Source of the DNA: Sphingobium scionense
Lineage (GTDB): Bacteria > Pseudomonadota > Alphaproteobacteria > Sphingomonadales > Sphingomonadaceae
Assembly (NCBI RefSeq): GCF_014197035.1
Contig: NZ_JACIEU010000015.1
Location: forward strand, 1 to 64,000
Direction: 5' to 3'
Length of the DNA stretch: 64,000 bases
Shown: positions 11,868 through 29,079 of the stretch, piece after piece
Position numbering within the stretch: position 1 is the first letter of the stretch
Layout of the letters: the number at the start of each line of letters is the position of its first letter
Made by a program: the position numbers and the translations under genes
Notes under the pieces: model-generated
What the model saw: the letters and a program-made list of their open reading frames with translations, nothing else
What the model was told of the DNA's origin: nothing
Database searches by the model: none

Positions 11868-11902
11868 CTGCCGCCCCGATTTCTTCCCCACCGTTCCGCC
11901 CA

Positions 11903-12639: not shown

Positions 12640-12640
12640 A

Positions 12641-14195: not shown

Positions 14196-14269
14196 AGCTT
14201 CAATCCCTCTCGAACAGGGGTTGCGGTCAGAGCTGGCGCGAGGTGTAGGAGCCTTGCGTCAGCTTGCAC

Positions 14270-14310
14270 TTTCTGACATCAATAAATTTGCATGTCAAAC
14301 ATTTCTGACA
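14270..14310. promoter_or_regulatory. Putative RHH-protein operator with TGACA repeats
   Basis: TTTCTGACA occurs at 14270-14278 and 14302-14310, with an inverted ATGTCAAA between them at 14292-14299. The inverted pair TGACAT...ATGTCA brackets the start codon of the RHH gene. Short repeated TGACA sites overlapping the promoter/start are typical for ribbon-helix-helix autorepressors. The assignment is by pattern only. Confidence 0.45.
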
Positions 14311-14483
14311 CCAAAAAGATTGGGCGCCCTGCAACCGGAGTGGGCAAACCTATCACCGTCCGCCTTAATGAGGCGGATTTGGCCGCGCTCGATTCATGGA
14401 TCGCCGGCCAGGAAGAGAAGCCAACCCGGCCGGAGGCAGTGCGCAAGCTCATGCGGCTCGGGATGACGGCAAAAGCTTCATGA
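14292..14483 (+). CDS. Ribbon-helix-helix (CopG/Arc-like) DNA-binding protein, possible antitoxin
   Basis: A 63-residue protein. GKPITVRLNEADLAALDSWIAGQEEKPTRPEAVRKLMRLGM (about 18-58) is a clear ribbon-helix-helix: the beta strand ITVRL, helix DLAALDSWIA, then the RPEAVRKLMRLG helix. Such proteins bind short palindromes as dimers and often repress their own operon. The gene overlaps the DUF3800 gene by 4 nt (ATGA), the layout of a regulator or antitoxin preceding an effector. Candidate sites lie at 14270-14310. The antitoxin role is inference from context. Confidence 0.8.
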   Translation: MSNISDTKKIGRPATGVGKPITVRLNEADLAALDSWIAGQEEKPTRPEAVRKLMRLGMTAKAS

Positions 14484-15367
14484 CGCCCCCTTCCGATGGA
14501 GACCATCAAGAAAAACAATACTCGTTCTTCGATGATCGCCTAGATTCGGAGACAGAGCCAGCGCAACGCCCAGATCGCGCGCCCTCGTCGGAGAGTAAGT
14601 TCAGCAATTATGTGGTCTATGTCGATGAGAGCGGCGATCACGGAATGCAAAATGTAGATCCCAACTACCCGTTATTCGTTCTCGCTTTCTGTATCTTCTA
14701 CAAGAAACATTACGCAGAAAAAGTAGTAACGGCGCTAGAGAAATTTAAATTTCGCAATTTCGGACATGACCTGATCATCCTCCATGAAAACGAAATCAGG
14801 AAAGAGAAAAATCAATTTAAGTTTGTAAGTGCAAAGGAAAAAGAAGATTTCATTTCCGATCTTACGGACATAATTGATAGGAGCAATTTTGTACTAGTTT
14901 CTTGCGTTATAGATAAGCATAGATTGAGCGCGAGATCGAAAAATGAGCAAAATCCCTACCATGTAGCTCTCGGATTTTGCTTGGAAACTCTCTATGAGTT
15001 CATGGTCGAAAAGGGTCAGCATGAGAAGCGCACTCATGTCGTCGTAGAGTGCAGGGGGAAAAAAGAAGATAAGGATCTCGAGCTCGAATTTAGGCGCATT
15101 TGCGCTGGCGAGAATCGGATGGATATCCCGCTGCCATTTGATGTTGTTTTTGCAGATAAAAAGGCCAATTCATCAGGCCTGCAATTGGCAGACTTGGTAG
15201 CGCGACCGATAGGTATGAGCATCTTGCGACCTGGACAGCCGAACCGAGCGTTTGACGTCCTCAAGCTCAAATTTTTTTGCAGCGGGGGTCGGGATAAGGT
15301 CGGTCAAGGCTTTGACGGCTGGGGTTTAAAAGTCTTCCCGGGCCCAGAAAGCGAAAAGCCCCGGTGA
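14480..15367 (+). CDS. DUF3800 protein, putative nuclease effector
   Basis: A 295-residue protein with the DUF3800 hallmarks: N-terminal VVYVDESGDHG (about 47-57), a central HENEIRKEK segment, and near the C-terminus SGLQLADLVARPI (about 230-242). The spaced acidic residues are compatible with an RNase H-like metal-dependent nuclease fold, as proposed for the family; activity is not shown. The gene is visibly more AT-rich than its neighbours, with many AAA, ATA and TTT codons, which suggests recent acquisition separate from the rest of the element. It is preceded by an overlapping RHH gene and ends in a hairpin. Confidence 0.8.
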   Translation: MTPPSDGDHQEKQYSFFDDRLDSETEPAQRPDRAPSSESKFSNYVVYVDESGDHGMQNVDPNYPLFVLAFCIFYKKHYAEKVVTALEKFKFRNFGHDLIILHENEIRKEKNQFKFVSAKEKEDFISDLTDIIDRSNFVLVSCVIDKHRLSARSKNEQNPYHVALGFCLETLYEFMVEKGQHEKRTHVVVECRGKKEDKDLELEFRRICAGENRMDIPLPFDVVFADKKANSSGLQLADLVARPIGMSILRPGQPNRAFDVLKLKFFCSGGRDKVGQGFDGWGLKVFPGPESEKPR

Positions 15368-15381
15368 AGCTCACCGAGGCT
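15357..15381 (+). terminator. Hairpin at the DUF3800 stop codon
   Basis: AGCCcCGGTGA pairs with TCACCGaGGCT across a 3-nt loop, with one mismatch; the stem includes the TGA stop codon. No T-tract follows, so termination may be weak or the hairpin may protect the mRNA end. Confidence 0.45.
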
Positions 15382-15697
15382 ATAACGCCGACCGGGATCC
15401 CCCAGTCCACTTGGGAATCATATATGCTCAGGATGATTCCAGATTCAAGGCTTTAAAGCTTGCCGGACTCAAAAAATATCTTTTGTCAAGCGAGCGCGCT
15501 GATTCGTTAACCGTTTGTTCTCCTCAATAGAGAATCGTGGGTAAAAGAGGAGTGGTCGGCAGAGCATCCGTCCGCCGCTGACGAATGCGAACCCGAGTAA
15601 AACTGGCACATCCTGATGGCGATGGGCTAACTCCCCACCACCGAAACCACGGGATGCCGTTATTGCGCGCGCCAGCCAGGCCGGATAGCCTGCGCTG
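15382..15697. other. Intergenic region, no gene recognised
   Basis: About 315 bases lie between the DUF3800 gene and the HTH gene. They contain an AT-rich stretch around 15440-15540, which probably carries the promoter of the HTH gene, but no convincing reading frame, RNA or repeat. Confidence 0.4.
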
Positions 15698-16570
15698 GTG
15701 CCGACACCTCTAGAAGCTCTCCGCCAGCGTCTCCATCTCACCGTCGAAGACCTCGCGGTGCGACTGAACGTCTCCAAGACACAAGTCCAGAAATGGGAAC
15801 GGCGCTGGGAAGATATCCCCCCTGACACGCTGCGAGAAATGGCGGTCAGCTATGGCGTCAGCGTCAGCTCCATCCTCGGCGAAGAGACGCCGGTAGAGGA
15901 ATGGGGCCGCCACCCCTTTGCGATCAACGAAGAGGAGGAGCTGTACGGAACGCTTCGCCTCACCTTCACGGATGACCAGGAGAATGAGTTCCCGATCAGC
16001 CAAAAGGCTAGGGAATCGGTTCTAGATCAGCTCCGCCGACGTTCATTCATAGATTCCCAGAATAGGCCCGGCAAAGAGCCATGGCTGTACTTCTGGGGCC
16101 TGGATGATCGCATCGCGATCGCGCGCATGTCCTGCGTCAGTGAGATTGCCCTGTTGAGCGACGACGACCGCCAAGCGCCATATTACGCCCACCCCGAGAT
16201 TTATCGCCTTCTGGTCACTGAGAGCATGTACGATGAAGAGCCGATCAAAGTTTTCGGCCAAGCTCTGTCAGAAGCGATGGCGACCCATTTCGACATTCTC
16301 GGCGGGCAAGCCGCAGCAATCCAGCAGGCTACCCACGCATGCCTGATCTTTCGGGACGGTCGAGAACTGTATGCGTCGTGCACCAATGCCGAAGAGGTCT
16401 CACCGCTCTTTCTGCTCGACATGACGAGCAGCGCCATCCCGACATCGGCTTTCCTCCAGATCGAGGACCCCACCAATTACCACGAAGCCTATTTCGTGAA
16501 TTTCGATGCCCTCCGCTTCATCAGCATCCCCTCCGAAGCCTACCATAGGTTCATAGGGTCCGACGACTGA
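15698..16570 (+). CDS. XRE-type helix-turn-helix regulator with unknown C-terminal domain
   Basis: A 290-residue protein starting at GTG. Residues about 1-60 form a Cro/CI-like HTH: LHLTVEDLAVRLNVSKTQVQKWERRWEDIPPDTLREMAVSYGVSVSSILG. The remaining ~220 residues are acidic with mixed alpha/beta character and have no LexA/CI-type peptidase signature (no recognisable Ala-Gly cleavage site and Ser/Lys pair) and no ImmA-type HExxH. It may be the element's repressor, given its solitary position and orientation opposite to the structural genes, but this is not proven. Upstream promoter not defined. Confidence 0.7.
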   Translation: MPTPLEALRQRLHLTVEDLAVRLNVSKTQVQKWERRWEDIPPDTLREMAVSYGVSVSSILGEETPVEEWGRHPFAINEEEELYGTLRLTFTDDQENEFPISQKARESVLDQLRRRSFIDSQNRPGKEPWLYFWGLDDRIAIARMSCVSEIALLSDDDRQAPYYAHPEIYRLLVTESMYDEEPIKVFGQALSEAMATHFDILGGQAAAIQQATHACLIFRDGRELYASCTNAEEVSPLFLLDMTSSAIPTSAFLQIEDPTNYHEAYFVNFDALRFISIPSEAYHRFIGSDD

Positions 16571-16674
16571 GCGTTTGAGCTTGTGACAGCCATCACAGCT
16601 TAACGATTGCACAAATGATATCGTCCATAACGGCGCGGCGCATAACGCGCGCTGGGGGAAAAACTGGGGGTATC

Positions 16675-17280
16675 ATGATTCGGGTAATGATTTGCGCGGC
16701 TGCATTGGCCGCATCGACGGGCGCTTATGCTCAGGGCGACGGCGCCCTGCCAGCCAGCACGCTGATCACGGTGACGCCGAACGAGGAGATCACGTCCAAG
16801 AAGGTCGAGGTCGGCACACGCGTTTCGTTCTCGGTGGTCAATGACATCGTGGAAAATGGCGCCGTTGCGATCCCGCGCGGCTCGCAGGTCGCCGGCACCA
16901 TTTCGTGGAAAACGGGCAAGGCGATCGGCGGCAAGTCGGGCAAGTTCGAAGTGAAGTTCGATAGCGTGAATGTGCGCGGTCGCGACTATGCTCTGCGCGG
17001 CGTTCATCGCCAGGAAGGGAAGGGCAACACGGCGGCGGCGCTGCTGGGCTCGATTCTCGTAAGCGGTCGATCGGCGCAAATGCTGCCGGGCCAGATGGCC
17101 AACGCCTTTACCGCTGAGCCGATCCCGATTTTCGTGGCACGCGCTGCACCTGCCGTTCCTGCAGCCGTCGCTCCGGTCGCTGCGGCCGAGCCGGTATCGA
17201 CTCCATCTCAGCCACGCGCGGCGGCCACGCCTGCACCGCGGCCGATGGTCGACAAGTCGCTGGAGATCAATCCGCGCTAA
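16675..17280 (+). CDS. Exported protein, element-borne paralogue of the chromosomal gene at 61196-61804
   Basis: A 201-residue secreted protein of unknown function. The signal peptide MIRVMICAAALAASTGAYA is followed by a beta-rich domain: KKVEVGTRVSFSVVNDIVENG, AVAIPRGSQVAGTISW and GKSGKFEVKFDSV, ending in a Pro/Ala-rich tail (about 150-190). The chromosomal protein encoded at 61196-61804 has the same N-terminus (MIR..CAAALAA), VKVGDRVNIETAEAVMIGNN, IPAGTPGIAEI and GKSGFIEG in the same order. The 18 nt around both starts, TGGGGGTATCATGATTCG, are identical. The pair probably derives from a host gene captured by the element. Start 16675 is supported by that shared context. Confidence 0.75.
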   Translation: MIRVMICAAALAASTGAYAQGDGALPASTLITVTPNEEITSKKVEVGTRVSFSVVNDIVENGAVAIPRGSQVAGTISWKTGKAIGGKSGKFEVKFDSVNVRGRDYALRGVHRQEGKGNTAAALLGSILVSGRSAQMLPGQMANAFTAEPIPIFVARAAPAVPAAVAPVAAAEPVSTPSQPRAAATPAPRPMVDKSLEINPR

Positions 17281-17319
17281 GCAGCGTATCAATGACGGCG
17301 CCTCGAACAGAGCGCGCCG

Positions 17320-19239
17320 TCACCCCTTCAGCTGGGCATATTTGCTGATCGTTCCCGGCGCCGATTGCTGGCTCTGAGCATAGGCAGCGGCGCCGGCACG
17401 GGTTCCCTCGGCCTTGATGGTGCGATTCACCCCCTGCAACAGCTCCGGCGTGGTGATGCCGTGCCGCGCGTCGAGCGTGAAATACTGGTTCACAGTGGTT
17501 CCGCCCGCCGCACCGCGCAGTAGCTTGTTGGGCATGACGAGGCTTTCCATGCCGGCGGTGAGCGGCGTCGCTGCGAGGCGATCATTCGGGACGATCATGC
17601 CCGACGACGGCGCACGGAACAGCTCAGGGCCGCGTTCGCCGACCAGATAGGTCTTCCCGCCCATGACCGGGCCGCCGGCCGCGCGTGCGCCGGAAATGCC
17701 CAGTGCCGATCCCACCGACTGCAGCGCCTTGCCGACATTGAAGCTGCCACCAGTGCCGTTGATCTGCCCCAGCGTGAACTTCGCCAGCGTCTCCGCGATG
17801 ATGCGGAAGCCCATGGCCTTGAAGTCGCTCCAGATCGCATCGGTGCCACCGCGGAATAGGTCTTCATAGAGCCCGGCCAGCGCATGCAACTGGTCCTCCT
17901 GCTTCCGCTTGAAGTCCTCGGCGATCTTGTCGTTGGCATCCTGGCGCAGGTCCAGATCTCGATCGATCTCCTTGCGGACATTGGAGCCGTCGAAGTCACC
18001 GGCATTGAAGCCGACATCGATCCAGCGCTGTTCCTGGCTCTTCCATGCCGCATCCGCAACGGCACGGGCCTGGTCGCGGGCAAGGGCGAGCCGGTAGGTG
18101 AGGGCGTCGACGGAGGACAGCACGCCCTTCATCTCCAGCATGTCGATATCCTTGAGCGCCTTGCCCGTCTCGATCGCGATGGATCGCACCGGATCGAACT
18201 TGCCCACGATGCGCTCCAGCGTCTGCTGAAGCTCCTGCTGGGCGCGGGCGGCCTCCTTGGCAGCCTTCGCCGCGTCGCGCTTGGCGGATGCATCGGCCTT
18301 GGTGGCGCGCTCGCTCTTGCCCGCCGCGGCAACCTCGGCATCGCGGGTGCGGTTCAGCTTCTCCAGTTCGGTGCGATAGGCGCTTGGCGTGATCTTGCCG
18401 GCCTCGAGCCGATCGTTGAGCTTGCCCAGCGCACGGTCATAGCGCCCGGTCGCGGCGGCGGCCTTATCGGTGGCTTCCGAAGCCTCGCGCTGCAGCCGGG
18501 GGATCGCTGAGCGGCGGACATTGGCATATTGCGCCTGCAGTTCGGTGTTCTGCTCTTTCAGCAGGGCATTGAGGCGCGTCAGCTCGCGCTCCTGCGTGGC
18601 GCCGGCCGTGACACCGAAATTGACACCGCCTTCGGGATCGCCCTGCTCGTTGGCCTGGCGATCGGCCGTTTCGAGGCGCACCTTGGCCGCCTGGATGAGC
18701 CGGATCGTGGCGACGCGCGCCGCCTCGGCCTTGGCAGCCAGCGCGGCCGCTTCGTTATAATGCTGCTGCTCCGCCTGCTGCGATGTCTGGATGGCACCCT
18801 TCGACGCTTCGGTCATATCGTTGATGGCGTCGGTGAGGGACTTGGCGCCCTTGGTGTGTTTCTCGGTTGCGTCATCCTCAGCCAACACGGCGGCGGTCAG
18901 CGTGCCGGCGACCGATGCCGCGGCGAGCAGGGCGGCGCCCCATGGTCCCGCGAAGAAGGATGCGACGGCACCGGCCTTGCCGCCCAGATCCGCCATGGCG
19001 TCGGCAAGCTGCGGTCCCTGTTGCGCCAGGATCGTGAACATGGACTGGCCGCCCGACAACTGTGCGCCAACGTCGGCGAACTGGCGTCCCATCTGGCGCC
19101 CGGCATAGGCAGCCCGCTCGGTGCCCTTTTCCATCGCATCGGTCGCGCGGACGGTGGTCGAAGCCGCCGATCGCATGCGGGACTCGAAATCAAAACTGTC
19201 GGCGCGGAGGCGGACGACGACTTCATCGGCAACGGGCAT
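17320..19239 (-). CDS. Phage tail tape measure protein
   Basis: A 639-residue protein that sets tail length and assists DNA entry in tailed phages. Its start is typical of the lambdoid-type family (VADEVVVRLRADSFDFESRMRSA). It contains AYAGRQMGRQFADVGAQLSGGQSMFTILAQQGPQLADAMADLGG (about 45-88), a hydrophobic segment at 93-118, and long Ala/Gln/Glu/Lys coiled-coil stretches (about 130-340). The C-terminal region has GRAAGGPVMGGKTYLVGERGPELF-type sequence common to this family. It is short for a full-length siphophage tape measure. It starts 1 nt after the gp10-like stop. No minor tail genes follow; instead the next genes are cargo on the opposite strand. Confidence 0.9.
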   Translation of the reverse strand: MPVADEVVVRLRADSFDFESRMRSAASTTVRATDAMEKGTERAAYAGRQMGRQFADVGAQLSGGQSMFTILAQQGPQLADAMADLGGKAGAVASFFAGPWGAALLAAASVAGTLTAAVLAEDDATEKHTKGAKSLTDAINDMTEASKGAIQTSQQAEQQHYNEAAALAAKAEAARVATIRLIQAAKVRLETADRQANEQGDPEGGVNFGVTAGATQERELTRLNALLKEQNTELQAQYANVRRSAIPRLQREASEATDKAAAATGRYDRALGKLNDRLEAGKITPSAYRTELEKLNRTRDAEVAAAGKSERATKADASAKRDAAKAAKEAARAQQELQQTLERIVGKFDPVRSIAIETGKALKDIDMLEMKGVLSSVDALTYRLALARDQARAVADAAWKSQEQRWIDVGFNAGDFDGSNVRKEIDRDLDLRQDANDKIAEDFKRKQEDQLHALAGLYEDLFRGGTDAIWSDFKAMGFRIIAETLAKFTLGQINGTGGSFNVGKALQSVGSALGISGARAAGGPVMGGKTYLVGERGPELFRAPSSGMIVPNDRLAATPLTAGMESLVMPNKLLRGAAGGTTVNQYFTLDARHGITTPELLQGVNRTIKAEGTRAGAAAYAQSQQSAPGTISKYAQLKG

Positions 19240-19240
19240 G

Positions 19241-19654
19241 CTATTTCTCCGTTTCGCGGGTGACGGCGGCTGTCACGAGCCGCGCAACCTTATCCTTGGT
19301 GGCGCGCGCAGCGGGGCGCATGAAGGGGCGCTCCGCCATGACGCCCGTGCCAAATTCGAGGGGGACCGCGTGCGCTGCGGTCGCGCTCACTTCCACGATC
19401 GTCGGATCGTCCTTCGCCTGGCGAACGATGATGCTGTTGTGAAGCTCGTGGAGGTCATTGTTGGGCGGCTCACCGGGCTTGCTGGGCACGTGGTTCTTGC
19501 CCGACACGCTGCCCTCCATGATTGAGCGCTTTGCCTCTTCCTGCAGCAGCCCCCCACCCACATAGAGCGCGCCGCGCACCGCCTCCTTCATCTCAGGCGA
19601 GGCCATCCGCTTGAACTTGCGCAGCACGGCATCGGCGCCTTTCACGTTAGGCAT
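19241..19654 (-). CDS. HK97 gp10-like head-tail/tail completion protein
   Basis: A 137-residue protein with features of the HK97 gp10 family: GADAVLRKFKRMASPEMKEAVRGALYVGGGLLQEEAKRSI, KPGEPPNNDLHELHNSIIV and the C-terminal AAHAVPLEFGTGVMAERPFMRPA motif. Members act in tail completion or joining. Start 19654 is preferred because it overlaps the preceding gene's stop (8 nt); an in-frame ATG at 19693 is the alternative. In ordinary siphophages this gene lies several genes before the tape measure; here it is immediately before it. Confidence 0.75.
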   Translation of the reverse strand: MPNVKGADAVLRKFKRMASPEMKEAVRGALYVGGGLLQEEAKRSIMEGSVSGKNHVPSKPGEPPNNDLHELHNSIIVRQAKDDPTIVEVSATAAHAVPLEFGTGVMAERPFMRPAARATKDKVARLVTAAVTRETEK

Positions 19655-19889
19655 GATGGGTATCCCGGTGGGGATGCGCGCGCGGGCGGACACGATCAGC
19701 GCGGATATGCGTCGGCGCGGGGGCCGGGGCGGCGGACAGTACCTCCGCCGCCTCCTTCGGATGGAACCTGAGCAGCCACGCGAGCTGCTGGGTTTCGGTC
19801 AGGTAGGCTTCCCTCTCAGCGCGGGGCACGCAGCGCGCCTCGGGCGGGTAGCTGGCGGCGATGCGCTGCAGTTCATGCGTCAGGGCCAT
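19647..19889 (-). CDS. Small element protein downstream of the LER-motif chain
   Basis: An 80-residue protein, MALTHELQRIAASYPPEARCV..., with a helical first half (REAYLTETQQLAWLLRFHPKEAAEVL) and a Pro/His/Arg-rich tail. It overlaps the genes on both sides (17 nt upstream, 8 nt downstream). Its N-terminus (THELQRIAASYPPEA) only loosely resembles the RRLxxLER motif of the six upstream small proteins, so I do not count it among them. Function unknown. Confidence 0.55.
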   Translation of the reverse strand: MALTHELQRIAASYPPEARCVPRAEREAYLTETQQLAWLLRFHPKEAAEVLSAAPAPAPTHIRADRVRPRAHPHRDTHHA

Positions 19890-20133
19890 GGTGCATCCTT
19901 CGAAGAATGTCGCGGAGGCGGAGGCGCTCAGCATCCGTAGTCTGCTCGTGAAGAATATAGACGGGACCGTGACGAGCGCCGGGCTTGGGCCAATCTGGAT
20001 CACCCGCGCGGATCGAGGCCACAAACTCCAAATCGTCGTCGCTGATATCGGAAAGGAATTTCGGATTGAGCGGGTTCGCATCAGGCGGAACAATCTTTTC
20101 CAGCGCTGCGAGGCGTCGGGTCAGGTCACGCAT
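19873..20133 (-). CDS. Small protein, member 6 of the tandem RRLxxLER family
   Basis: An 86-residue protein beginning MRDLTRRLAALEKIVPPDAN, followed by an acidic region (DISDDDLEFVASIRAGDPDWPKPG) and a C-terminal helix (DAERLRLRDILRRMHHG). The N-terminal block matches the consensus of the five small proteins encoded just upstream. It overlaps its upstream neighbour by 8 nt. Function unknown; the shared amphipathic N-terminal helix suggests a common partner or coiled-coil contact. Confidence 0.6.
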   Translation of the reverse strand: MRDLTRRLAALEKIVPPDANPLNPKFLSDISDDDLEFVASIRAGDPDWPKPGARHGPVYILHEQTTDAERLRLRDILRRMHHGPDA

Positions 20134-20278
20134 GACAGTCCCTCCCGTTATCAGGGAGCGCCACGATCGCTTTGCCAGCGCGGGCGATAATGGCCCAACC
20201 GCCACACCGGACATGCTGGAATTGTGCGACTGGCTGTTGCTGGCGCTCGAGCCTGGCGAGGCGCTGGCGCTGGTTCAT
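20126..20278 (-). CDS. Small protein, member 5 of the tandem RRLxxLER family
   Basis: A 50-residue protein starting MNQRQRLARLERQQQPVAQF, then VRCGGWAIIARAGKAIVALPD, a short beta-hairpin-like stretch. It is linked to the upstream gene by a 4-nt ATGA overlap. The length is at the limit of what coding evidence can support alone; the conserved N-terminus and unbroken coupling are the reasons to accept it. Confidence 0.55.
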   Translation of the reverse strand: MNQRQRLARLERQQQPVAQFQHVRCGGWAIIARAGKAIVALPDNGRDCHA

Positions 20279-20436
20279 CGTGGATACCTCCAGCATTCGG
20301 GATTGTTGGGGTACATCCGCTCGAGCGGCAGCCGCGCGACAATCTGATCCCACGGCATGTCGGAGAGCGAGGGAAATATTTCGGCCGGTCCAGCAGCTCG
20401 CTCGAGCTTCTCGAGGCGACGGCGGTGATTGCTCAT
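20275..20436 (-). CDS. Small protein, member 4 of the tandem RRLxxLER family
   Basis: A 53-residue protein starting MSNHRRRLEKLERAAGPAEI; the rest (FPSLSDMPWDQIVARLPLERMYPNNPECWRYP) is unrelated to the other members. ATGA overlaps join it to both neighbours. Function unknown. Confidence 0.55.
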   Translation of the reverse strand: MSNHRRRLEKLERAAGPAEIFPSLSDMPWDQIVARLPLERMYPNNPECWRYPR

Positions 20437-20708
20437 GCCACCATTCCCAACCGCCTGGCATCGCCAAGCAAGTCCTCGGCTGACTTTGGGCCGGGCGGAC
20501 GGGGGCATTTGCAGTGAAGAGAGATCAGCCGATCCTCCTCTACGATTTCTTCATCGCTGAGGGCTTCGTCCGCCTCTCGCTTGACCCACAGGCCCAGCAC
20601 AAAATGCTCATCGGAGTGGCTCAATGGCCAGGGACAGGCGCACGGCAACATCGCCGCACGGCACGGCGCCCGTTCCAAAGCCGCTAGGCGGCGGTGCAAC
20701 GCGCTCAT
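20433..20708 (-). CDS. Small protein, member 3 of the tandem RRLxxLER family
   Basis: A 91-residue protein starting MSALHRRLAALERAPCRAAM. It has five cysteines in total, including the pairs PCACP and HCKCP, which could form a small metal site. A central acidic helix (READEALSDEEIVEEDRLISL) separates the pairs. ATGA overlaps join it to both neighbours. Function unknown; the paired cysteines are the most distinctive feature of the family. Confidence 0.6.
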   Translation of the reverse strand: MSALHRRLAALERAPCRAAMLPCACPWPLSHSDEHFVLGLWVKREADEALSDEEIVEEDRLISLHCKCPRPPGPKSAEDLLGDARRLGMVA

Positions 20709-20899
20709 GGCAGAATATCCCCTGAACAAGGCATCAAGCGACCTGTCGCAGTTTGGGCGGGAGGATAGAACGGAGCCAGCGGATCGGGGCCTGCGCTGTC
20801 CATGATGGCCGCATAGAAGTCATCGAGCGAACCAAAGACCTTGCGGACGGGGGATGCCGTCCTTTCAAGCCGATCAAGGCGCCTCCGCAGATTTGTCAT
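20705..20899 (-). CDS. Small protein, member 2 of the tandem RRLxxLER family
   Basis: A 64-residue protein starting MTNLRRRLDRLERTASPVRK, followed by VFGSLDDFYAAIMDSAGPDPLAPFYPP and a short tail. ATGA overlaps join it to both neighbours. No recognisable domain beyond the shared N-terminal helix. Confidence 0.6.
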   Translation of the reverse strand: MTNLRRRLDRLERTASPVRKVFGSLDDFYAAIMDSAGPDPLAPFYPPAQTATGRLMPCSGDILP

Positions 20900-21135
20900 G
20901 CCAGCATGTCCATCGGTTCAACGCTCTGCGCAAATACCCGCGACATCCAGGCCGGCATCCGGCGCAGCATAGTTTCGAAATCCTCTGCTGATGGAATGCC
21001 CGCCACCGGATGCTCCTCACCCAAAGCAACACGATAGCGGGCGACCCCGGCGGCAAACTCCGCCTCGGTCATGCGTCCATCCTGTCGTGCACCGCGCTCC
21101 AGAGCGCGCAGTCGGCGCAAAAGCTCATTACCCAT
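20896..21135 (-). CDS. Small protein, member 1 of the tandem RRLxxLER family
   Basis: A 79-residue protein starting MGNELLRRLRALERGARQDG. The rest is MTEAEFAAGVARYRVALGEEHPVAGIPSAEDFETMLRRMP, which looks helical. It overlaps the DUF5681 gene upstream by 8 nt and the next member by 4 nt. It is the first of six consecutive genes whose products share this N-terminal block. Confidence 0.6.
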   Translation of the reverse strand: MGNELLRRLRALERGARQDGRMTEAEFAAGVARYRVALGEEHPVAGIPSAEDFETMLRRMPAWMSRVFAQSVEPMDMLA

Positions 21136-21547
21136 GACTGGCCTCCAGCGCTGCCAATCGCGATTCGATGTCGGCCGTCTCGATCGCTTTGCGGTGTTCG
21201 GCCAGCATGGCGGCCAGCGCCTGCCCTTCTGCCGGCGTCAGGGCGCCACCGGCAACCGCCGTCATGATCGATGCCAGCGCGGCGGGATGGTCATGGGCAC
21301 CCTCGATCTGGGGCATATCGAAAATGACATGGCGATCTTTCCGGGGCGGCGCGATGCGATCCATGCAGATCCGCATGGCCTGCACATCGCCGGCCAGCGC
21401 CATATCCACCGCCTTCTTGGTCAGCTTCTCAACCTGACCATCCAGCAGAGCTTCGCAGGCCACGGTCGCCTTATGGCGGGTACCCTTGGCCTTGCCCCGA
21501 TTTCCCTTGGCGAACTGGCCTTTGCTGTTTCGGCCCCCCTCAGCCAT
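21128..21547 (-). CDS. DUF5681 phage-associated protein
   Basis: A 139-residue protein. NSKGQFAKGNRGKAKGTRHKATVACEALLDG and EKLTKKAVDMALAGDVQAMRICMDRIAPPRKDR (about 5-70) fit DUF5681, a family found near phage packaging genes. The C-terminal part is helical and ends ADIESRLAALEASHG, echoing the LxxLE pattern of the small proteins that follow. Start 21547 is chosen for its 8-nt overlap with the upstream gene; ATG 21559 is equally possible. A role in packaging is only guilt by association, since no large terminase is present. Confidence 0.65.
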   Translation of the reverse strand: MAEGGRNSKGQFAKGNRGKAKGTRHKATVACEALLDGQVEKLTKKAVDMALAGDVQAMRICMDRIAPPRKDRHVIFDMPQIEGAHDHPAALASIMTAVAGGALTPAEGQALAAMLAEHRKAIETADIESRLAALEASHG

Positions 21548-21971
21548 TGCCAGACTCATCGATGCCGACAAGCGTGGCGTACATGACAGCCGCCGCGATG
21601 TTCCAAAGCTCCTGCAGCGGGCAATGGGGCGGGGCATTGTCGGCCACCAGTTGCCGGGCATCGGCTGGGCTGCACTCACCGCCGCCGATCAGCGCCAGGC
21701 GCACGACATTGGAGATGAGCGCCATCGATGCGCCGGAACGGAAGGGGTTGCCGATCGATCCCTCGCCCTGCTCGACCCGGCCCGACATGATGTGCGAGAA
21801 CAGTTCGAAGATGGGCATGGGCTTCACGCCGAAATAGCGCTGCATCGTCACCATGTGATCGAAGGAGCGCGACATGCCCGTCTCGATCTCCATGATCTGA
21901 TCCGGTCCCAGCTCCATGCGGTAGGTGCCGCCGGCGAAGGGCTGGGCAGCGAGGTAGGTCAGCTTAGGCAT
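21540..21971 (-). CDS. Tail assembly chaperone-like protein (GTA gp10-type)
   Basis: A 143-residue protein. GGTYRMELGPDQIMEIETGMSRSFDHMVTMQRYFGV and the later NVVRLALIGGGECSPADARQLVADNA pattern resemble tail tube/assembly chaperone proteins of the gene-transfer-agent gp10 type. These assist tape measure assembly and sit between the tail tube and tape measure genes. Here eight small or unrelated genes separate it from the tape measure. The assignment rests on pattern resemblance and is moderate. It overlaps both neighbours by 8 nt. Confidence 0.5.
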   Translation of the reverse strand: MPKLTYLAAQPFAGGTYRMELGPDQIMEIETGMSRSFDHMVTMQRYFGVKPMPIFELFSHIMSGRVEQGEGSIGNPFRSGASMALISNVVRLALIGGGECSPADARQLVADNAPPHCPLQELWNIAAAVMYATLVGIDESGNG

Positions 21972-22806
21972 CGGCAGCCTCCCGTGCGTCGACGGGCGTG
22001 ACGGTCATCTTTGCTGCCCGGCAGGCCTCAACCTGTTGCGGAAGCAACCAGCAGCGGTGAGCCTGATACCCCAATTGAAAAACGCCATCGGCATGGAACA
22101 AGCTCACCGTGCCCTGACGATTGTCAGTGCGCTGCACCACATATTTCGCTTTCGTGGCCTGCTTCGCGCGCTCAGCCTCGCCAAAGACATCGAAGAATTG
22201 CATGGGGCGCTTCGCCTCGGGCTGAGGCCAGAGGAAGCCATCGCCGTCAAACCGTGGGATGCGAATATCAGTCAGGCGCGAAACGTGATTGAGGTTCGGC
22301 CACTGTCCAGTGCCGATGAAGCCCCTGGCTTGCTGCTCCGCGGGGGTGATGCTAGCTGCGCCGCCAGGCTTGCTCTGGTTGACCTGATAGACACAAGCGT
22401 TGTTACTCAGCACTCGTTCCAACAGGCTGGTCAACTCAGCAAAGATTTCCGGAATACGTTCCTTGAGATCAGCCGCCAGAACTACAGTCTCCGTAACGGT
22501 ATCCTCATACTGCTTACGGAGCGCCTGGGCCGCATCGCTCTGTGTCCTCTCCGCAAAGCGGCCAGCCAGCGTCTCTTTCCGTGAAATCCAGCGCTCGATG
22601 GCAAATCGCAGGCCCTGCTCATCCTTGCGGGCTTGGTCGGCATCGGCGTCCGAGATAGCTCCGTCCAGCGACTTGGCGTGAGCCAGACCGGCGGCATCGC
22701 TAAGGCGCGCAACTTCCGCATCGATCTCGGCAATGACAGCCTGGATGTCGGTTGCCGTCGCGCGGGGCTTCATCATGGAATGGAAGCGTTCTTCAAGCGG
22801 CTTCAT
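21964..22806 (-). CDS. Hypothetical element protein with long coiled-coil N-terminus
   Basis: A 280-residue protein. Residues about 15-130 are almost entirely helical and charged (DIQAVIAEIDAEVARLSDAAGLAHAK...QALRKQYEDTVTETVVLAADLKERIPEIFAELTSLLERVL). The C-terminal half has several Trp/Phe/Gln-rich segments. It lies between the DUF2213 protease-like gene and the tail chaperone-like gene, the place where capsid or head-tail genes are expected, but it does not look like a major capsid protein. A structural or scaffold-like role is possible; no family recognised. Confidence 0.6.
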   Translation of the reverse strand: MKPLEERFHSMMKPRATATDIQAVIAEIDAEVARLSDAAGLAHAKSLDGAISDADADQARKDEQGLRFAIERWISRKETLAGRFAERTQSDAAQALRKQYEDTVTETVVLAADLKERIPEIFAELTSLLERVLSNNACVYQVNQSKPGGAASITPAEQQARGFIGTGQWPNLNHVSRLTDIRIPRFDGDGFLWPQPEAKRPMQFFDVFGEAERAKQATKAKYVVQRTDNRQGTVSLFHADGVFQLGYQAHRCWLLPQQVEACRAAKMTVTPVDAREAADA

Positions 22807-22845
22807 GATTATCGTCCTTTCTGCCCGATACGGGGCGGGGGAATG

Positions 22846-23655
22846 TCAGTTGCGGGAGCCGTTGAGAGCTGCGACCGAGCGCTGATAGGCGGCGTGTTCC
22901 TTGGCCTTGGCATCGGCCATTGCTGCATCGGAGATGATGCTGTCGCGCGGTTTGACGGCCATTGCGTCTGCGAGCGCTTGGCGCTCCATCTGGTCGGTCC
23001 AGGGCCCGTTGCGGCTGCTGTTCAGATTGTGAACCGACTTGGCGTAAGCGACAGCCAGGCGGCCTTCATCGCTATCACGGAAGGTGGTCAGTTGGGCGTC
23101 ATTGAACATGCCTGAGGCTCCTTGCATGAGGCTGTCCCCGATCCGGCATTCGCTGCCGGCACGGCCGAGAGGAACGAGGGCGATATGGTTGCCCCGAATG
23201 TTGCGCTGGGTGGCCTGATAGGCGGTGCCATCCGGCGCGATGCCGTCGCCCCAGACCAGATCACAGGAGTAGCCCGCGGACAGTTCACGGGCCTCGCCGC
23301 GCTCATAGGCGCCAACCGCCTGGGCATCTGCGAGCATCAGGGGGATTTCGACATAGCCGCCGTCACGGGCAATCTTGCCCTCGGTGAAGCCGACGCTGAC
23401 CTTCGACCAGTTCGCGGCCGATACGCCATCAGAGGGATGATGGAAGGTCACAGCCTTATGGCCGAAGCTCGCCATCGCATCCTGCGAGAAAACCTCGGCT
23501 TCGGGACGATAGACGTTCACGCTGGACAGGTGGGGCTTGCCGACTTCGGCGCCGCTATAGGTGTAGACGCCCGATCGGGCGAAGCGGGCGACAGCGGCGA
23601 TCCTGCCGTCTGCCAATTTGCGGACCCTTTCAAGGGGTGCGCGGTCCATCAACAT
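22846..23655 (-). CDS. DUF2213 protein, probable phage capsid maturation protease
   Basis: A 269-residue protein. VARFARSGVYTYSGAEVGK, VNVYRPEAEVFSQDAMASFGHKAVTFHHPSDGVSAANW and GEARELSAGYSCDLVWGDG match the DUF2213 family, which in tailed phages occupies the prohead protease position. The N-terminal ~200 residues form this domain; the C-terminal ~65 are helical, with two SxRNGxW/NGSRN-like repeats (NLNSSRNG, ALNGSRN). The start is placed at the first ATG of MLMDRAPLERV; an upstream start at 23730 adds 25 Pro/Arg-rich residues. No capsid gene follows. Confidence 0.75.
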   Translation of the reverse strand: MLMDRAPLERVRKLADGRIAAVARFARSGVYTYSGAEVGKPHLSSVNVYRPEAEVFSQDAMASFGHKAVTFHHPSDGVSAANWSKVSVGFTEGKIARDGGYVEIPLMLADAQAVGAYERGEARELSAGYSCDLVWGDGIAPDGTAYQATQRNIRGNHIALVPLGRAGSECRIGDSLMQGASGMFNDAQLTTFRDSDEGRLAVAYAKSVHNLNSSRNGPWTDQMERQALADAMAVKPRDSIISDAAMADAKAKEHAAYQRSVAALNGSRN

Positions 23656-23786
23656 GACCAATTTCAAATCTCCATCCACCCCATGGGTTCGGGGGCAACC
23701 GCGCCGCGCCGGGGGTAGATCGGGCGACACCGGAGGGAGATTGCGCGCTGGAAGGGCGGGCTTATACGGACGGGAGGATTGGAGGT

Positions 23787-24095
23787 GTGATGATCTACAG
23801 TGCCAATTATCTGACGCCGCATAACATCCTGTTGATCGGTGGAGCCATGGCTGGCGTTATCGCCGCTGGTCTTTGGCTTTGGTCAACTTTTGCAGCGATC
23901 ACTCGCGAGCAGGTTGTCGCCAAACGCAAGCGCGACGCTGCGAAGAAAGGCGTGGAGCCAAATCTTGCGGGCATATCAATCGACGGGTTCGACCCGGTTG
24001 AAACGCTGCGTAAGCAATCGAAAATCAACGCGGCGGCGGCCTTACTGACCGGGCTCGCGATCATCAGCCAGACTCTCTCAAGCTTTATCGACTAG
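23787..24095 (+). CDS. Small membrane protein, opposite strand to the structural genes
   Basis: A 102-residue protein with a first membrane helix at about 15-36 (ILLIGGAMAGVIAAGLWLWSTF), a charged middle loop rich in Lys/Arg (REQVVAKRKRDAAKKG), and a second hydrophobic segment near the C-terminus (AAAALLTGLAIISQTLSSF). The size and two-helix layout would also fit a holin, but there is no lysis partner. Start is ATG-ATG at 23787/23790. Its orientation against the flanking genes suggests an independently expressed cargo gene. Confidence 0.6.
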   Translation: MMIYSANYLTPHNILLIGGAMAGVIAAGLWLWSTFAAITREQVVAKRKRDAAKKGVEPNLAGISIDGFDPVETLRKQSKINAAAALLTGLAIISQTLSSFID

Positions 24096-24185
24096 GCCGT
24101 GGCAGACACCTAGTCCGCCACTTATCCCCGCCGGATCGCGGAATTGAGCGGGACATGGGATATCGGGCGCCCGGCTTCCCACTGC

Positions 24186-24443
24186 CTACCCATCACAATC
24201 CCCGAATCCCGGCGGCGTCCGTGTCAGCAGAATGCCGTCGACCGTGATGCGCTCACCCAGGCGGGGCCACACGACGGCCCGGCCGTCATCCTCGATCTGA
24301 TAGACCTCCCGATCGCCCGCGGGGGATAGGGCCAGGATCGGGAACCACTCGAGCGGCACGATCACGATCCGATCGTCGGCCAGCTCGAATTGCACCTGGC
24401 GGCCGGCAAAGGTGACATCGCAGATCCGGGCATTCACAAACAT
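24186..24443 (-). CDS. DUF2442 domain protein
   Basis: An 85-residue protein. ICDVTFAGRQVQFELADDRIVIVPLEWFPILALSPAGDREVYQIEDDGRAVVWPRLGERITVDGIL covers a complete DUF2442 domain, whose ...GxxIxWPxLDEDIxxxxLL ending is recognisable. DUF2442 proteins are small and often accompany toxin-antitoxin-like DUF4160 genes; no DUF4160 partner is seen here. It overlaps the upstream gene by 10 nt. Confidence 0.75.
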   Translation of the reverse strand: MFVNARICDVTFAGRQVQFELADDRIVIVPLEWFPILALSPAGDREVYQIEDDGRAVVWPRLGERITVDGILLTRTPPGFGDCDG

Positions 24444-24754
24444 GGCATGCCTTCCGGGATCGCTTGATGCAGCGCGTGGGCATATCGGCGCTTGGCGGCC
24501 TCGCGTCGGGCCTGTTCGGCCCTGAGTGTCTTCAGGCGGCCGAGATACCGCAACCGCGCCTGCTGCAGCTTCTCGCCGCCGCAATGGGTCAGCCAGCGCT
24601 TATTGATGTCAGTGCGGGCGCCGAAGGCTCTTTCAACACCTCGCCAGCCCCAACGCACGAATGTCTCGGCGAAGGCTGGCGGGCAGGCTTTCTGAAGGTG
24701 TGGACGTGGCCCAGTAGAGGGATATCTGGGCGGAGAGGCGTCGTCGCTGTCCAT
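24434..24754 (-). CDS. Hypothetical phage-type protein
   Basis: A 106-residue basic protein. A Pro-rich start is followed by FAETFVRWGWRGVERAFGARTDINKRWLTHCGGEKLQQARLRYLGRL and a long basic helix (KTLRAEQARREAAKRRYAHALHQ). The RWGWRGVERxFGARTDINKRWL block looks conserved and HTH-like, reminiscent of phage DNA-binding proteins, but I cannot name a family. Start 24754 is chosen to begin before the conserved block; ATG 24835 is possible. Confidence 0.55.
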   Translation of the reverse strand: MDSDDASPPRYPSTGPRPHLQKACPPAFAETFVRWGWRGVERAFGARTDINKRWLTHCGGEKLQQARLRYLGRLKTLRAEQARREAAKRRYAHALHQAIPEGMPCL

Positions 24755-24886
24755 GGCGCGACAATGGCCGTGAGGAGAGGACGCCAATACGAACGGTGCG
24801 GCTGTCGGTCTGCGGTTGGAAGTGCGTTCATTCATCCGGCGAGGTTATGGGAACCAAGGGGGGTGGTTTACCGTCGCCGCAATGTG

Positions 24887-25015
24887 ATGCCCGTCACGCT
24901 GAATCGGACAGACTGGAGCTATCCAACCTGCCGAACCGTGCTGAGCGTGCAAATGGACCCCCTCGCGCTCGAGGCTGATTTGGTGAACAAGATTGCGAAG
25001 CGACTAGGGCGTTAA
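24887..25015 (+). CDS. Possible 42-residue orphan protein
   Basis: A short frame MPVTLNRTDWSYPTCRTVLS...ADLVNKIAKRLGR sits in the 250-bp gap between two minus-strand genes, and a small GC hairpin (CCCGCTTTTGCGGG, 25047-25060) lies beyond its stop. There is no good ribosome-binding site and no homologue in the window. It is listed because otherwise the gap 24755-25086 is unexplained; it may be chance. Confidence 0.25.
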   Translation: MPVTLNRTDWSYPTCRTVLSVQMDPLALEADLVNKIAKRLGR

Positions 25016-25086
25016 TCGCTGTTCCCGCCCGCGCGCCCGTATTAGGCCCGCTTTTGCGGGGTGGCGCGTGCATGACACACATCCCT

Positions 25087-25323
25087 TCAATTCACCCCCT
25101 CACCAGCCGCGCTAAGCGATTCCGTCCAGATCCGCATGATGTCGACTGACGCAGGCCCGTGCGTCCGGTCCAGCGCCACCAGCGCGGCGGAGAACAGCAT
25201 GCTTGCCGCCCGGTCGCCCAGCATCAGGATGGCGAAGTCCGCGATCGAGTGCGCATCGGCCAGGAAAGCCGATTGCCGGGCAAAGGTGATTTCCGCTTCG
25301 GTCATGTCGCCGGCTTTCCTCAT
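25087..25323 (-). CDS. Small helical protein coupled to the primase-helicase gene
   Basis: A 78-residue protein, MRKAGDMTEAEITFARQSAFLADAHSIADFAILMLGDRAASMLFSAALVALDR..., predicted all-helical. The start at 25323 overlaps the stop of the primase-helicase gene as ATGA, which argues for this start over ATG 25305. Function unknown. Confidence 0.5.
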   Translation of the reverse strand: MRKAGDMTEAEITFARQSAFLADAHSIADFAILMLGDRAASMLFSAALVALDRTHGPASVDIMRIWTESLSAAGEGVN

Positions 25324-27485
25324 TTGTCGTGCCAACCGATCGTGTCCCCGTTGTCGTCCAGGCCATCGGTTTGCGACACTGCATTATATCCGCCCGCTAC
25401 GGTTGCTACACCACCTCCCCTACGGGGGGAGGGGTATAGCATAGCAGCCGTATGCTCCGGTGCTACATCGTGCTCTGCTACACTTTGCGAAGGTGTAGCA
25501 GGAGCCGAATTCATCCAGCGCCCAACCTCCACAAACTTCTTCCACTGGCGGTTCTTATCCTGCTTCTCGACCACCTTAAGGGCGCCTTCAGATATCCAGA
25601 CTTTGAGCAGAGCCTTGATGCGCGCCTTGTCCGCCTTCTCGCTTTCATCAAGCCCAAGGACGCGCGCCACCTCATTGCCGACCCAGTCGTTGGCCGTGTG
25701 ATGCTCCTTCCAATCGCCAGCTGCGATCGCGCTCTGAACGGCGACGAGATGACCAACGGTCAGGTCATCAAATGGGTTAGGTGCGGTCCATGGCTCTGCC
25801 ACGCCGACGCTATCGCCCGGATTGCCATCATCATCGCCATTGCCCAAATCGACGGAGGCAAGGCGATACCAATCCGCTTTCTCGGCAGGCGCTCGGTTGT
25901 GCTTATCATCTTCCACGGCGAAATAGCGGCGGCGGTCATCATCACCGATACCGAGTTGCTCGGCCCGCTCCTTGTCCATCCGATTAAGAACGAGGGTTGA
26001 GCGGCAGGCATTGATCAGGGCTACTGCGCCGCGCGCGGACATCGCGGTAACTTCGCCTGAACCCGCCTTACTGGTGTGATGGACCAGAACGATAGCGCAA
26101 TTGGCAGCCTTGGCCACACGCGCCCATGCCTTCGCAATCTTGTCGATTTTGCCGTTGGCGTTTTCTTCCACCTCGTGACTGGAGACGAACGGATCCACGA
26201 CCAGCACATCAATGCGTCGATCGGTCAGTTCTGCCAGCAACGCGTCATAAACGGGGACAAGGAGACGGAAGCCGTCCTCCTCAGTCGCAGTGCAGAGAGA
26301 TGCGCCTTCCATTCCGCTATCGACAAAGAGCCGATCGGCAACGTCAGCGCCGGTGAGCCCATAATGCTTTGCTGATGCCTGTATGGATCGAGACAGCTCA
26401 TCCAGGTCGTCTTCCAAATTCCAAAGCCAGACCCGCTTCTGGCCCTCCCAGACCTGCTTGCCCAGCAACGGGCGCCCGGTACACAGCGCCAAGGCCGTTC
26501 CAGCCAACATTGTCGATTTGCCGACACCACCTGGCGCAACGACGCCCGTGATCGTGCCGCGAAGAAACCAACGGCCATACACCCATGGGCGAGGCGGAAT
26601 GGCGCTAGGCTCGCGCCAGACATAGGGCGTAGCACGGATAACTATGCCGCTGGCCTTTTCAGCAGTCGTTCGCTCCTGCACCAGCGCGCGCAGATCCTCC
26701 ACGCTACCGGTCCAGTCCATGATGTCATCGCCATCGTTCTGAAGGCCCGGAAGGCGAACAATCCGGCCTTGGCAGCCAGCGCCTTCGACATGCTCAAGCG
26801 CTTTCGTCGCCTGCCTCGCGCCATCGTCGCCATGGTCAGGAAGGATCACCACCGGACGGCCAGCTATGTACTGCGCAAACTCCGGTTTCCAGCCTTTGAA
26901 CGATGTTGCGTTGAAGCCCCAGCCCGCAAGCTTGTCTGCGTGCTTCTCGCCCTCCGTCATGATGATGAGGCCAGATGATGCGCGGAGATCGTCAGCGCGG
27001 TAGGGGATCGGCCTTTTCCCATCCCCCCAAGTCCAGCCGCCGCGCCCATCAGGATGATCGAAGCGGAACGATTTGTCGCGGCCATCATCGCCAGGCTCGA
27101 CCCGATGCTTGCGATAGTGAACCTTGCCGGCCTCGCCATAGATATAGGTCGCGACGATCTTCTGGCCGGCGTTCAGCCGCACTGCATGGCCAGGGAGAAT
27201 GTCGTATCGGGGATTATCGTTGCCGATCGTCCGCGGATTGGCCTCGCCATCTTTCCAGGCACTATCCACCGTCCGGCCGGCTTCCCGCTCGTCCAGGCCG
27301 CAAGCCTTGGCAGCTTCGATCAGTTTTCGCTTCTCCGCGACCATTTCAAAGCCCGCAGCTTTTGCGAGCTGGGCCGTGGCGTAAGCTGCCCGATTGAGGG
27401 TGTTGTTCCGGCTGCCGTTGCCGGCGCGACGGACGGCATCGAGATTGTCATCTCGGGCTCGCTCATAGGCGTGGTAGAGGGTCAT
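25320..27485 (-). CDS. Element replication protein: TOPRIM-like primase with RepA-type helicase domain
   Basis: A 721-residue replication protein. The N-terminal ~90 residues are helical, as in phage primases. Residues about 165-250 contain a TOPRIM-like fold: LIIMTEGEKHADKLAGWGFNATSF and PVVILPDHGDDGARQA. A RecA/RepA-type hexameric helicase domain follows (about 290-510), with Walker A GVVAPGGVGKSTM, Walker B VLVVDPF, and the HHTSKAGSG loop. The C-terminus resembles a DNA-binding extension. The combination supports autonomous replication of the element. It is embedded in a chain of ATGA overlaps (27482-27485 and 25320-25323). The 3' coding end contains a repeat/hairpin cluster. Confidence 0.88.
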   Translation of the reverse strand: MTLYHAYERARDDNLDAVRRAGNGSRNNTLNRAAYATAQLAKAAGFEMVAEKRKLIEAAKACGLDEREAGRTVDSAWKDGEANPRTIGNDNPRYDILPGHAVRLNAGQKIVATYIYGEAGKVHYRKHRVEPGDDGRDKSFRFDHPDGRGGWTWGDGKRPIPYRADDLRASSGLIIMTEGEKHADKLAGWGFNATSFKGWKPEFAQYIAGRPVVILPDHGDDGARQATKALEHVEGAGCQGRIVRLPGLQNDGDDIMDWTGSVEDLRALVQERTTAEKASGIVIRATPYVWREPSAIPPRPWVYGRWFLRGTITGVVAPGGVGKSTMLAGTALALCTGRPLLGKQVWEGQKRVWLWNLEDDLDELSRSIQASAKHYGLTGADVADRLFVDSGMEGASLCTATEEDGFRLLVPVYDALLAELTDRRIDVLVVDPFVSSHEVEENANGKIDKIAKAWARVAKAANCAIVLVHHTSKAGSGEVTAMSARGAVALINACRSTLVLNRMDKERAEQLGIGDDDRRRYFAVEDDKHNRAPAEKADWYRLASVDLGNGDDDGNPGDSVGVAEPWTAPNPFDDLTVGHLVAVQSAIAAGDWKEHHTANDWVGNEVARVLGLDESEKADKARIKALLKVWISEGALKVVEKQDKNRQWKKFVEVGRWMNSAPATPSQSVAEHDVAPEHTAAMLYPSPRRGGGVATVAGGYNAVSQTDGLDDNGDTIGWHDK
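25404..25500. repeat. TGCTACA repeat cluster and hairpin inside the 3' end of the primase gene
   Basis: The heptamer TGCTACA occurs at 25404-25410, 25461-25467 and 25476-25482 and, inverted, at 25494-25500. The last two form TGCTACAC-(9 nt)-GTGTAGCA, a perfect 8-bp dyad. A second dyad, CCTCCCC-TAC-GGGGGAGG, lies at about 25412-25432. The repeats do not keep a single reading-frame phase, so they are not a protein repeat. Iteron-like origin or regulator sites are possible; see findings. Confidence 0.4.
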
Positions 27486-27574
27486 TCGGCCCTCCCGATG
27501 CGTGCGTCACGGTCCATGATGATGAGGCAAAGCACAGGGCGATACCCGTAGGAAAACTCCAACAGGGCGATCAT
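27482..27574 (-). CDS. 30-residue coupled microprotein
   Basis: MIALLEFSYGYRPVLCLIIM then 10 charged residues. The frame fills the gap between two genes exactly: its start overlaps the upstream stop (ATGA at 27571-27574) and its stop overlaps the primase start (ATGA at 27482-27485). The protein has one short hydrophobic segment. The perfect coupling on both ends is the only evidence; it may act mainly to pass ribosomes to the primase gene. Confidence 0.45.
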   Translation of the reverse strand: MIALLEFSYGYRPVLCLIIMDRDARIGRAE

Positions 27575-27732
27575 GCCGCCACCTCGCCCTGCTTATAGTC
27601 GCTGACGATGATCGGCAGGCCCATCCGGTAGTCCGACGAGGAAACCGCGCTCATCACCAGGTCATAGGAAGCGATCGGCGTCACGTAGTCGTCAGGCGCC
27701 GGGATGCCGATGGTGATGACGGCACTATGCAT
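27571..27732 (-). CDS. Small element protein
   Basis: A 53-residue protein, MHSAVITIGIPAPDDYVTPI...SYDLVMSAVSSSDYRMGLPIIVSDYKQGEVAA, of mixed alpha/beta character. The start at 27732 lies 8 nt inside the end of the upstream gene; it ends in an ATGA overlap with the microprotein gene. Function unknown. Confidence 0.5.
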   Translation of the reverse strand: MHSAVITIGIPAPDDYVTPIASYDLVMSAVSSSDYRMGLPIIVSDYKQGEVAA

Positions 27733-28006: not shown

Positions 28007-28012
28007 GGGCGG

Positions 28013-29021: not shown

Positions 29022-29079
29022 GGCTGAGCCCGTAAGTGTTTCCGCCGTCGAAAGGAAACACTTAGAGTGAAATCAGGGG

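Follow-up and report, generated by a model that had tools for sequence, protein, structure and literature searches.

In phage P22, N-terminal residues of the large terminase subunit (TerL) bind residues 140–162 of the small subunit (TerS), and the same review describes an N-terminal HTH as common to all TerS (PMC9611059). For lambda, predicted models backed by older genetics place the N-terminal helix of TerL in a four-helix bundle formed by the TerS C terminus (PMC10810279). Some integrated elements also encode proteins directed at TerS. Rpp of Gram-negative PICIs is a single protein that attaches to the helper phage TerS at its N-terminal DNA-binding region; pac SaPIs encode a TerS together with Ppi, which binds the TerS of the phage and not that of the island; and the account of Rpp and Ppi given there describes no tandem array (PMC6739421). 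In one phage, a protein of the family DUF5681 (PF18932) was found in the virion proteome, with its gene (46,936–47,355) standing last in the virion-protein table. The genome is oriented to begin at TerL, and the parts of that paper that deal with DUF5681 and the terminase give neither a function nor a microprotein array and name only the large subunit (PMC8954984). From these positions we infer that the DUF5681 gene of this phage adjoins TerL.

The window, by which we mean the whole 64,000-nucleotide stretch of Sphingobium scionense DNA analysed here, encodes on its minus strand a protein that belongs to DUF5681 or comes very near to it. Next to it are six ORFs for microproteins of 50–91 amino acids, and an ORF check found them as an earlier note on this DNA had claimed, each with an N terminus of the form M..[R/Q]RLxxLE[R/K] and with divergent bodies. 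We defined a strict motif, [RK].?[LIV]..[LIV]E within the first 24 residues, which all six contain.

21128–21547, minus strand: DUF5681 protein, 139 amino acids, predicted TerS, tail hairpin ending in RLAALE (PF18932, phage relatives, Roseomonas tail, AF2)
20896–21135, minus strand: microprotein 1, 79 amino acids (relatives in L006/L023, L007 and L101; dN/dS; AF2)
20705–20899, minus strand: microprotein 2, 64 amino acids (4-nt overlap, strict motif; body joined no other in clustering)
20433–20708, minus strand: microprotein 3, 91 amino acids, CxC pairs (4-nt overlap, strict motif; body unclustered)
20275–20436, minus strand: microprotein 4, 53 amino acids (4-nt overlap, strict motif; body unclustered)
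20126–20278, minus strand: microprotein 5, 50 amino acids, body end ALPDNGRDCHA (relatives in L023 and L007)
19873–20133, minus strand: microprotein 6, 86 amino acids (8-nt overlap, strict motif; body unclustered)

Adjacent microprotein genes overlap by 4 nt at four of the five junctions and by 8 nt at the remaining one, the cysteine pairs PCACP and HCKCP lie in the 91-residue protein, and the DUF5681 protein ends in RLAALEASHG, a likeness to the microprotein N termini; in these points the note was borne out. The proline that it had placed after the motif is not constant across the six. The end of the DUF5681 gene at 21128 gives an 8-nt overlap with microprotein 1. When the 64 kb were scanned for R[IL]..LE within 10 residues of an ATG or GTG, the sole extra match was a 34-residue frame at 63719. 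An AF2 model of the 79-residue protein consists of a helix (residues 2–19) and a helical body (mean pLDDT 83.5) and matched nothing in the PDB at E <= 0.001. Pfam and PHROGs gave no match at E <= 0.01 for five of the six proteins (all but the 50-residue one); the 79-residue protein had a weak PHROG match to an uncharacterised family (E 0.042) and, by tblastn in phages, one weak match only (E 5). NCBIfam had no match for the two microproteins searched, and PADLOC found no defence family among 10 proteins including all six.

The array lies in an integrated element of 18.7 kb at a tRNA-Ser site, bounded by perfect 19-nt att repeats.

11817–11835, no strand: att repeat 1, 19 nt, at the 3' end of tRNA-Ser (11739–11830) (repeat search)
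17320–19239, minus strand: tape measure protein (PF06791, E 9.8e-11)
19241–19654, minus strand: HK97-gp10-like neck/tail completion protein (PHROG 5, E 8.2e-19; PF04883, E 2.7e-4)
19647–19889, minus strand: small gene of 80 amino acids (AYPPEAR) 3' of the array, without the strict motif (also in array-less L028)
21540–21971, minus strand: tail tube/GTA-gp10-like protein (PHROG 8985, E 6.8e-6; PF11836, E 6.5e-5, below cut-off)
22846–23730, minus strand: DUF2213 head maturation protease (PHROG 530, E 2.2e-60; PF09979, E 3.6e-47)
25320–27485, minus strand: AAA_25 primase/helicase-like protein (PF13481, E 8.5e-38)
29080–30378, minus strand: tyrosine integrase (PHROG 1, E 5.9e-45)
30492–30510, no strand: att repeat 2, 19 nt, beyond the integrase (repeat search)

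One other perfect 19-nt pair occurs in the window, at unrelated places, so such a pair by itself may be chance. Among 94 genomes of the genus, however, the joined flanks matched over the full 395 nt in two (G021, 96%; G016, 94%), and these empty sites set the span of the element at about 11836–30510. In a further genome (G029) the two flank halves match about 17.6 kb apart, and a sister element (L028) occupies the same tRNA-Ser site. It has the same backbone and neighbours and neither DUF5681 nor the array, and the two therefore look like one accessory block. TerL, portal and major capsid genes had no match among the element ORFs scanned, a set that covers the small ORFs in part; in a PF03237 search of 115 genomes (E <= 1e-10) the sole match in the host genome lay on another contig (C24). 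The element shares these features with PICI-like satellites: it is compact and integrated, with an integrase, att repeats, an AAA_25 primase-like gene and empty sites, and the scanned ORFs are without essential phage genes, in which a defective prophage would look alike. We call it satellite-like; satellite and defective prophage are indistinguishable from these genes. Of the neighbours named in the earlier note, the tape measure gene was confirmed, although the HK97-gp10-like gene stands between it and the array, and the supposed tail chaperone instead resembles a tail tube/GTA-gp10 protein. The note had held a place between tail genes to be unexpected; it is less odd when the cassette is seen to follow a terminase-like gene.

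Several observations bear on the DUF5681 protein itself, which looks like a terminase small subunit. Its match to PF18932 (E 8.5e-6, 26.7 bits) is below the cut-off of 27.5. In an AF2 model, built from 5 sequences, residues 1–40 had a mean pLDDT of 44–49 and gave no confident N terminus, while the tail helices 84–99 and 105–138 (pLDDT 82–87) form a confident C-terminal hairpin that ends in the motif; the model matched nothing in the PDB at E <= 0.001. The motif is among the best conserved spots of the protein, with R130 and L134 invariant and E135 nearly so across 19 selected rows. A tblastn search with the relative from Vibrio phage 199E37-1 matched 269 phage records. In the 14 that we inspected, the DUF5681 relative lies directly before TerL or with one ORF between (Bas79, sortkaff); the gaps to TerL are about 100–120 nt in pIS4-A and ZCKP8, and in 199E37-1 and K20 the two genes adjoin across the ends of the record. 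Thirteen of the 14 TerLs carry that annotation; the one of sortkaff is annotated as hypothetical and was inferred to be TerL from its size and the portal gene behind it. In the records inspected, the phage relatives thus occupy the place of a TerS next to TerL; the window element showed no TerL. Homology to a recognised TerS was found over the C-terminal 88 residues only: these are 51% identical (E 3e-19) to a Roseomonas mucosa plasmid protein whose residues 34–173 are a Terminase_2 domain (E 3.1e-33). The Roseomonas gene is followed by four coupled small ORFs with the starts MRRLEK, RRLDRLT, RLCRLE and RRLDRLA, one of which fits the strict motif. We also note a plasmid labelled Bacillus safensis (L111, NZ_CP015609.1), a label that may be wrong, in which small ORFs follow a TerS resembling that of Roseomonas.

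The motif recurs at the N terminus of TerL. Large subunits encoded beside DUF5681 relatives begin with MASALSKRLSKLEESA (PVA1), MSSALLKRLKKVEPL (1.275), MSSLLNRLKRVEPL (1.039), MMSSRLNRVASLEF (199E37-1), MNLATLSKRLDRIQE (2.095) and MAKNRKEAIERLARLEA (sortkaff). The strict motif was present in 5 of the 14 adjacent TerLs and a slightly wider form in 7 of 14, compared with 0 of 30 control TerLs for both, although for the controls (the longest ORF of each of the best 30 PF03237 loci) any start up to codon 60 was accepted; the loosest pattern gave 7 of 14 against 5 of 30. A stretched form such as RKRLSALAIEKLE is seen in five TerLs that make up one group (seszw, Bas79, pIS4-A, ZCKP8 and 6991), with the ZCKP8 protein taken from an ATG six codons past the annotated start, and the Vibrio TerLs 1.016 and 1.112 show nothing like the motif. 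We then scored these N termini with a profile built from 83 N-terminal blocks (consensus SNLKRRLEKLERKQQ). Six TerLs scored above all 397 control N termini, which came from heuristic ORF calls with the longest start in 23 loci, and control TerLs reached at most 5.3; the sortkaff TerL was reached by 1 of the 397 controls and four stretched-form TerLs by 2%, and those of pIS4-A, 1.016 and 1.112 did not stand out. The 14 TerLs represent about five lineages, of which about three match, so that the profile p of 1.6e-4 overstates independence.

To count how often a motif ORF follows a DUF5681-like gene, we used 71 loci, 57 with an upstream protein ending in the tail motif and 14 without. The next ORF after the 57 tail-bearing loci had the strict motif in 35, a relaxed form only in 7 (three of which, L098, L111 and L131, look like members) and neither in 15. 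These 15 comprise 8 of the 10 loci of a second tail type, assigned by script, and seven others (L003, L043, L049, L050, L051, L062 and L147). Among the 14 loci without the tail motif, the strict motif was seen in 2 (L142, and L047 at a doubtful distance), the relaxed form in 1 and neither in 11. As a control, a strict-motif ORF followed 5 of 223 other genes in 23 loci (heuristic ORF calls with the longest start); 3 of these are members of the system, leaving 2 of 220, and of 56 control genes with an exactly coupled ORF 2 were followed by the strict motif, both system members. Most loci were already known when the strict pattern was drawn up; in the later phylum sample the pattern holds for 12 of 16 tail-bearing loci. 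The counted loci are partly non-independent, with eight from one genome (G482), two each from G222 and G920, and the close pairs L059/L107 and L098/L111. We left out the contig-cut loci L044 and L054, the duplicates L001, L002, L006, L039, L065 and L144, the near-copies of L098 (L112 and L113), partial or N-terminal-only matches (L008, L102–L106, L108 and L150) and phage records with TerL next.

Walking along 38 arrays with a wide pattern yielded 87 ORFs, of which 73 fit the strict motif and some of the rest are chance hits at which the walk ended; a 4-nt overlap is present at 55 of the 87 junctions. Their bodies fall into 57 clusters at a permissive BLAST limit, 13 of which contain at least two proteins, and the same body type can sit at different array positions. 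The earlier idea of a modular set fits these comparisons, in which similar arrays follow a gene of this one kind in many bacteria; its fixed gene order is not supported, since number and order vary between relatives.

Two other arrays are in the same genus. On a Sphingobium terrigena contig (L006, with L023 taken as the same contig) DUF5681 is accompanied by four strict-motif ORFs, and in S. jiangsuense (L007) by three. Identity to the window proteins in S. terrigena and S. jiangsuense, respectively, is 80% (L006/L023) and 70% for DUF5681, 60% (L006/L023) and 38% for the 79-residue protein, and 82% (L023) and 61% for the 50-residue protein; a viral contig (L101) with an array of four also has a relative of microprotein 1. 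Further arrays of four occur in Methylobacterium sp. WL1, in the related viral contig L107 and in the phage-collection record MT836812, which was found with another query and in which TerL is not the next gene. Five ORFs stand in tandem in Methylorubrum extorquens pCMU02, four of them strict and one with RRLERHE. Far from these proteobacterial hosts, the chlamydial Waddlia chondrophila plasmid pWc (L063) carries DUF5681 and one coupled microprotein, whose LALPDNGR resembles the window 50-residue protein by eye and was not joined to it in clustering. A match was present in 17 of 296 genomes sampled from the order of the window and in 20 of 398 from the phylum. Besides that of the window, the seven best loci of the order sample (L066–L072) have between one and three such ORFs behind them and the ten weaker ones (L073–L082) have none. 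Scans of viral contigs with the window DUF5681 protein, A3 and L040 as queries found no relatives, and other queries found some.

Several other loci showed variant surroundings. One (L086, G654) is an element with an AAA_25 gene, DUF5681 and an array; downstream it encodes an ejection protein resembling P22 gp7 (Pfam E 1.4e-9). The Citrobacter plasmid pRHBSTW-00021_2 (L099), an 8.6-kb circular record, has major capsid, DUF5681, tail assembly and integrase genes; the 8 features listed for its first 4.8 kb do not include a terminase. A 2.4-Mb genome (G482) has nine DUF5681-like matches (L042, L049 and L051–L057), and a strict-motif ORF follows none of the eight that were readable. Islands of the same genus as the window (L025, L026 and L027) carry a second DUF5681 type, with a motif-bearing ORF (GSFDAW/GSFDAF body) about 0.75–0.83 kb downstream; the start in L026 is a presumed one.

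We asked how these small frames have been maintained. Between L059 and L107 (Methylobacterium), dN/dS was 0.20–0.48 for four microproteins and 0.21 for TerS; between the window and L023 it was 0.28 for the 79-residue gene and 0.05 for TerS, and the 50-residue gene had a pS of 0.80 and a pN of 0.11, with many synonymous distances near or past saturation. The two window frames with orthologues (79 and 50 residues) therefore look to be under purifying selection; the other four, compared by clustering and family libraries alone, joined no protein. In three of four Methylobacterium pairs, conservation is higher over the first 20 codons than over the bodies; in three L067/L070 pairs it is not, and in two of these it is clearly lower. 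Within the six motifs of the window, identical residues share a codon in 24 of 87 pairs, against 31.4 expected from codon usage. Synonymous codons thus differ inside the motif, which argues that it is kept as protein and speaks against repeated DNA with neutral substitution, the origin of the shared N terminus that the earlier note had named as the alternative. Shine–Dalgarno coding was considered as a reason for the LE codons; by reasoning, it could fit the TerS end and does not fit the N termini.

We propose that each microprotein has a docking helix, resembling that of TerL, for attachment to the TerS tail of a satellite-like element, and give this reading a probability of roughly 0.5. Because their genes overlap, the six would be made by coupled translation. 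Each N terminus would form a short amphipathic helix of the sort that TerL uses to bind the C-terminal helices of TerS, and, as the TerL N terminus binds the TerS C terminus in P22 and, in predicted models, in lambda, the microproteins may dock on the TerS tail in the same way. Their common partner would probably be the DUF5681 protein, read as TerS. They could then occupy the TerL site on the TerS oligomer and bring different small bodies there, and the outcome may be a change in which DNA is packaged, or in whether the TerL of a helper or rival phage can bind. Against this reading count the nature of RLxxLE, a short, coiled-coil-like motif, the tail-bearing loci and adjacent TerLs that lack it, and a DUF5681 model with no confident N terminus where TerS are described as sharing an HTH. 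More tentatively, such arrays could be a plug-in system for the packaging motor, in which mobile elements that lack TerL keep TerS and add a changing set of microproteins with the docking helix of TerL; one TerS oligomer might then present many small domains and bias packaging in favour of the element or to the disadvantage of a rival phage.

In another reading the motif is a homotypic coiled coil, through which the microproteins pair with the like helix at the TerS C terminus or among themselves. They would then help to build the packaging complex that belongs to the element, as structural or assembly components, with neither TerL mimicry nor redirection. That TerS itself ends in the motif, at one of its best conserved spots, favours this. 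Yet TerLs beside such TerS start with the motif or its wider form in 7 of 14 cases, and the number and type of bodies vary so strongly among relatives that modulators fit better than fixed structural parts; we regard this reading as unlikely. It is likewise improbable, in our judgement, that the array is an accessory cassette of independent small effectors (counter-defence proteins, regulators or toxins) in which the N terminus serves stability, localisation or expression and TerS is a mere neighbour. The diversity of the bodies and the joint absence of DUF5681 and array from the sister element would suit such a cassette, but arrays are tied to a single kind of tail throughout Pseudomonadota and in a chlamydial plasmid, coupled small ORFs are also found behind a protein whose N-terminal domain is Terminase_2, and the PADLOC search of 10 proteins came back empty. 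Chance, or repeated DNA with neutral substitution and no common function, could draw on the shortness of motif and genes and on the four of six frames without a known orthologue; set against 35 of 57 versus 2 of 220, differing codons and low dN/dS wherever it was measurable, it is hardly credible.

The docking reading sets this locus apart from the described systems in specific ways. As in P22 and lambda TerL, an N-terminal segment would serve to bind the C-terminal part of TerS, but here the helix is on free-standing tandem microproteins without an ATPase or nuclease domain. Like Rpp, the microproteins are products of an integrated element with a probable TerS partner; unlike Rpp, there are several of them, the TerS-like protein is the element's own and the proposed site is its C-terminal tail. 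With pac SaPIs the locus shares an element-encoded TerS accompanied by proteins that may target TerS. These likenesses to Rpp and Ppi are drawn from published descriptions (PMC6739421). In the parts of the open PMC literature that bear on such arrays or such mimicry, we found no fitting description.

Our findings give a testable role to the uncharacterised DUF5681 family and to many small hypothetical genes behind it. They suggest a candidate TerS for 269 phage records (Salmonella, Vibrio, Klebsiella, Escherichia and others), where the matching gene, among the matches listed, is named as a hypothetical or coil-containing protein or is unannotated. They also suggest that the docking helix of TerL may be a reusable tag of mobile elements, which would be a new way to steer the packaging of phage and satellite DNA.
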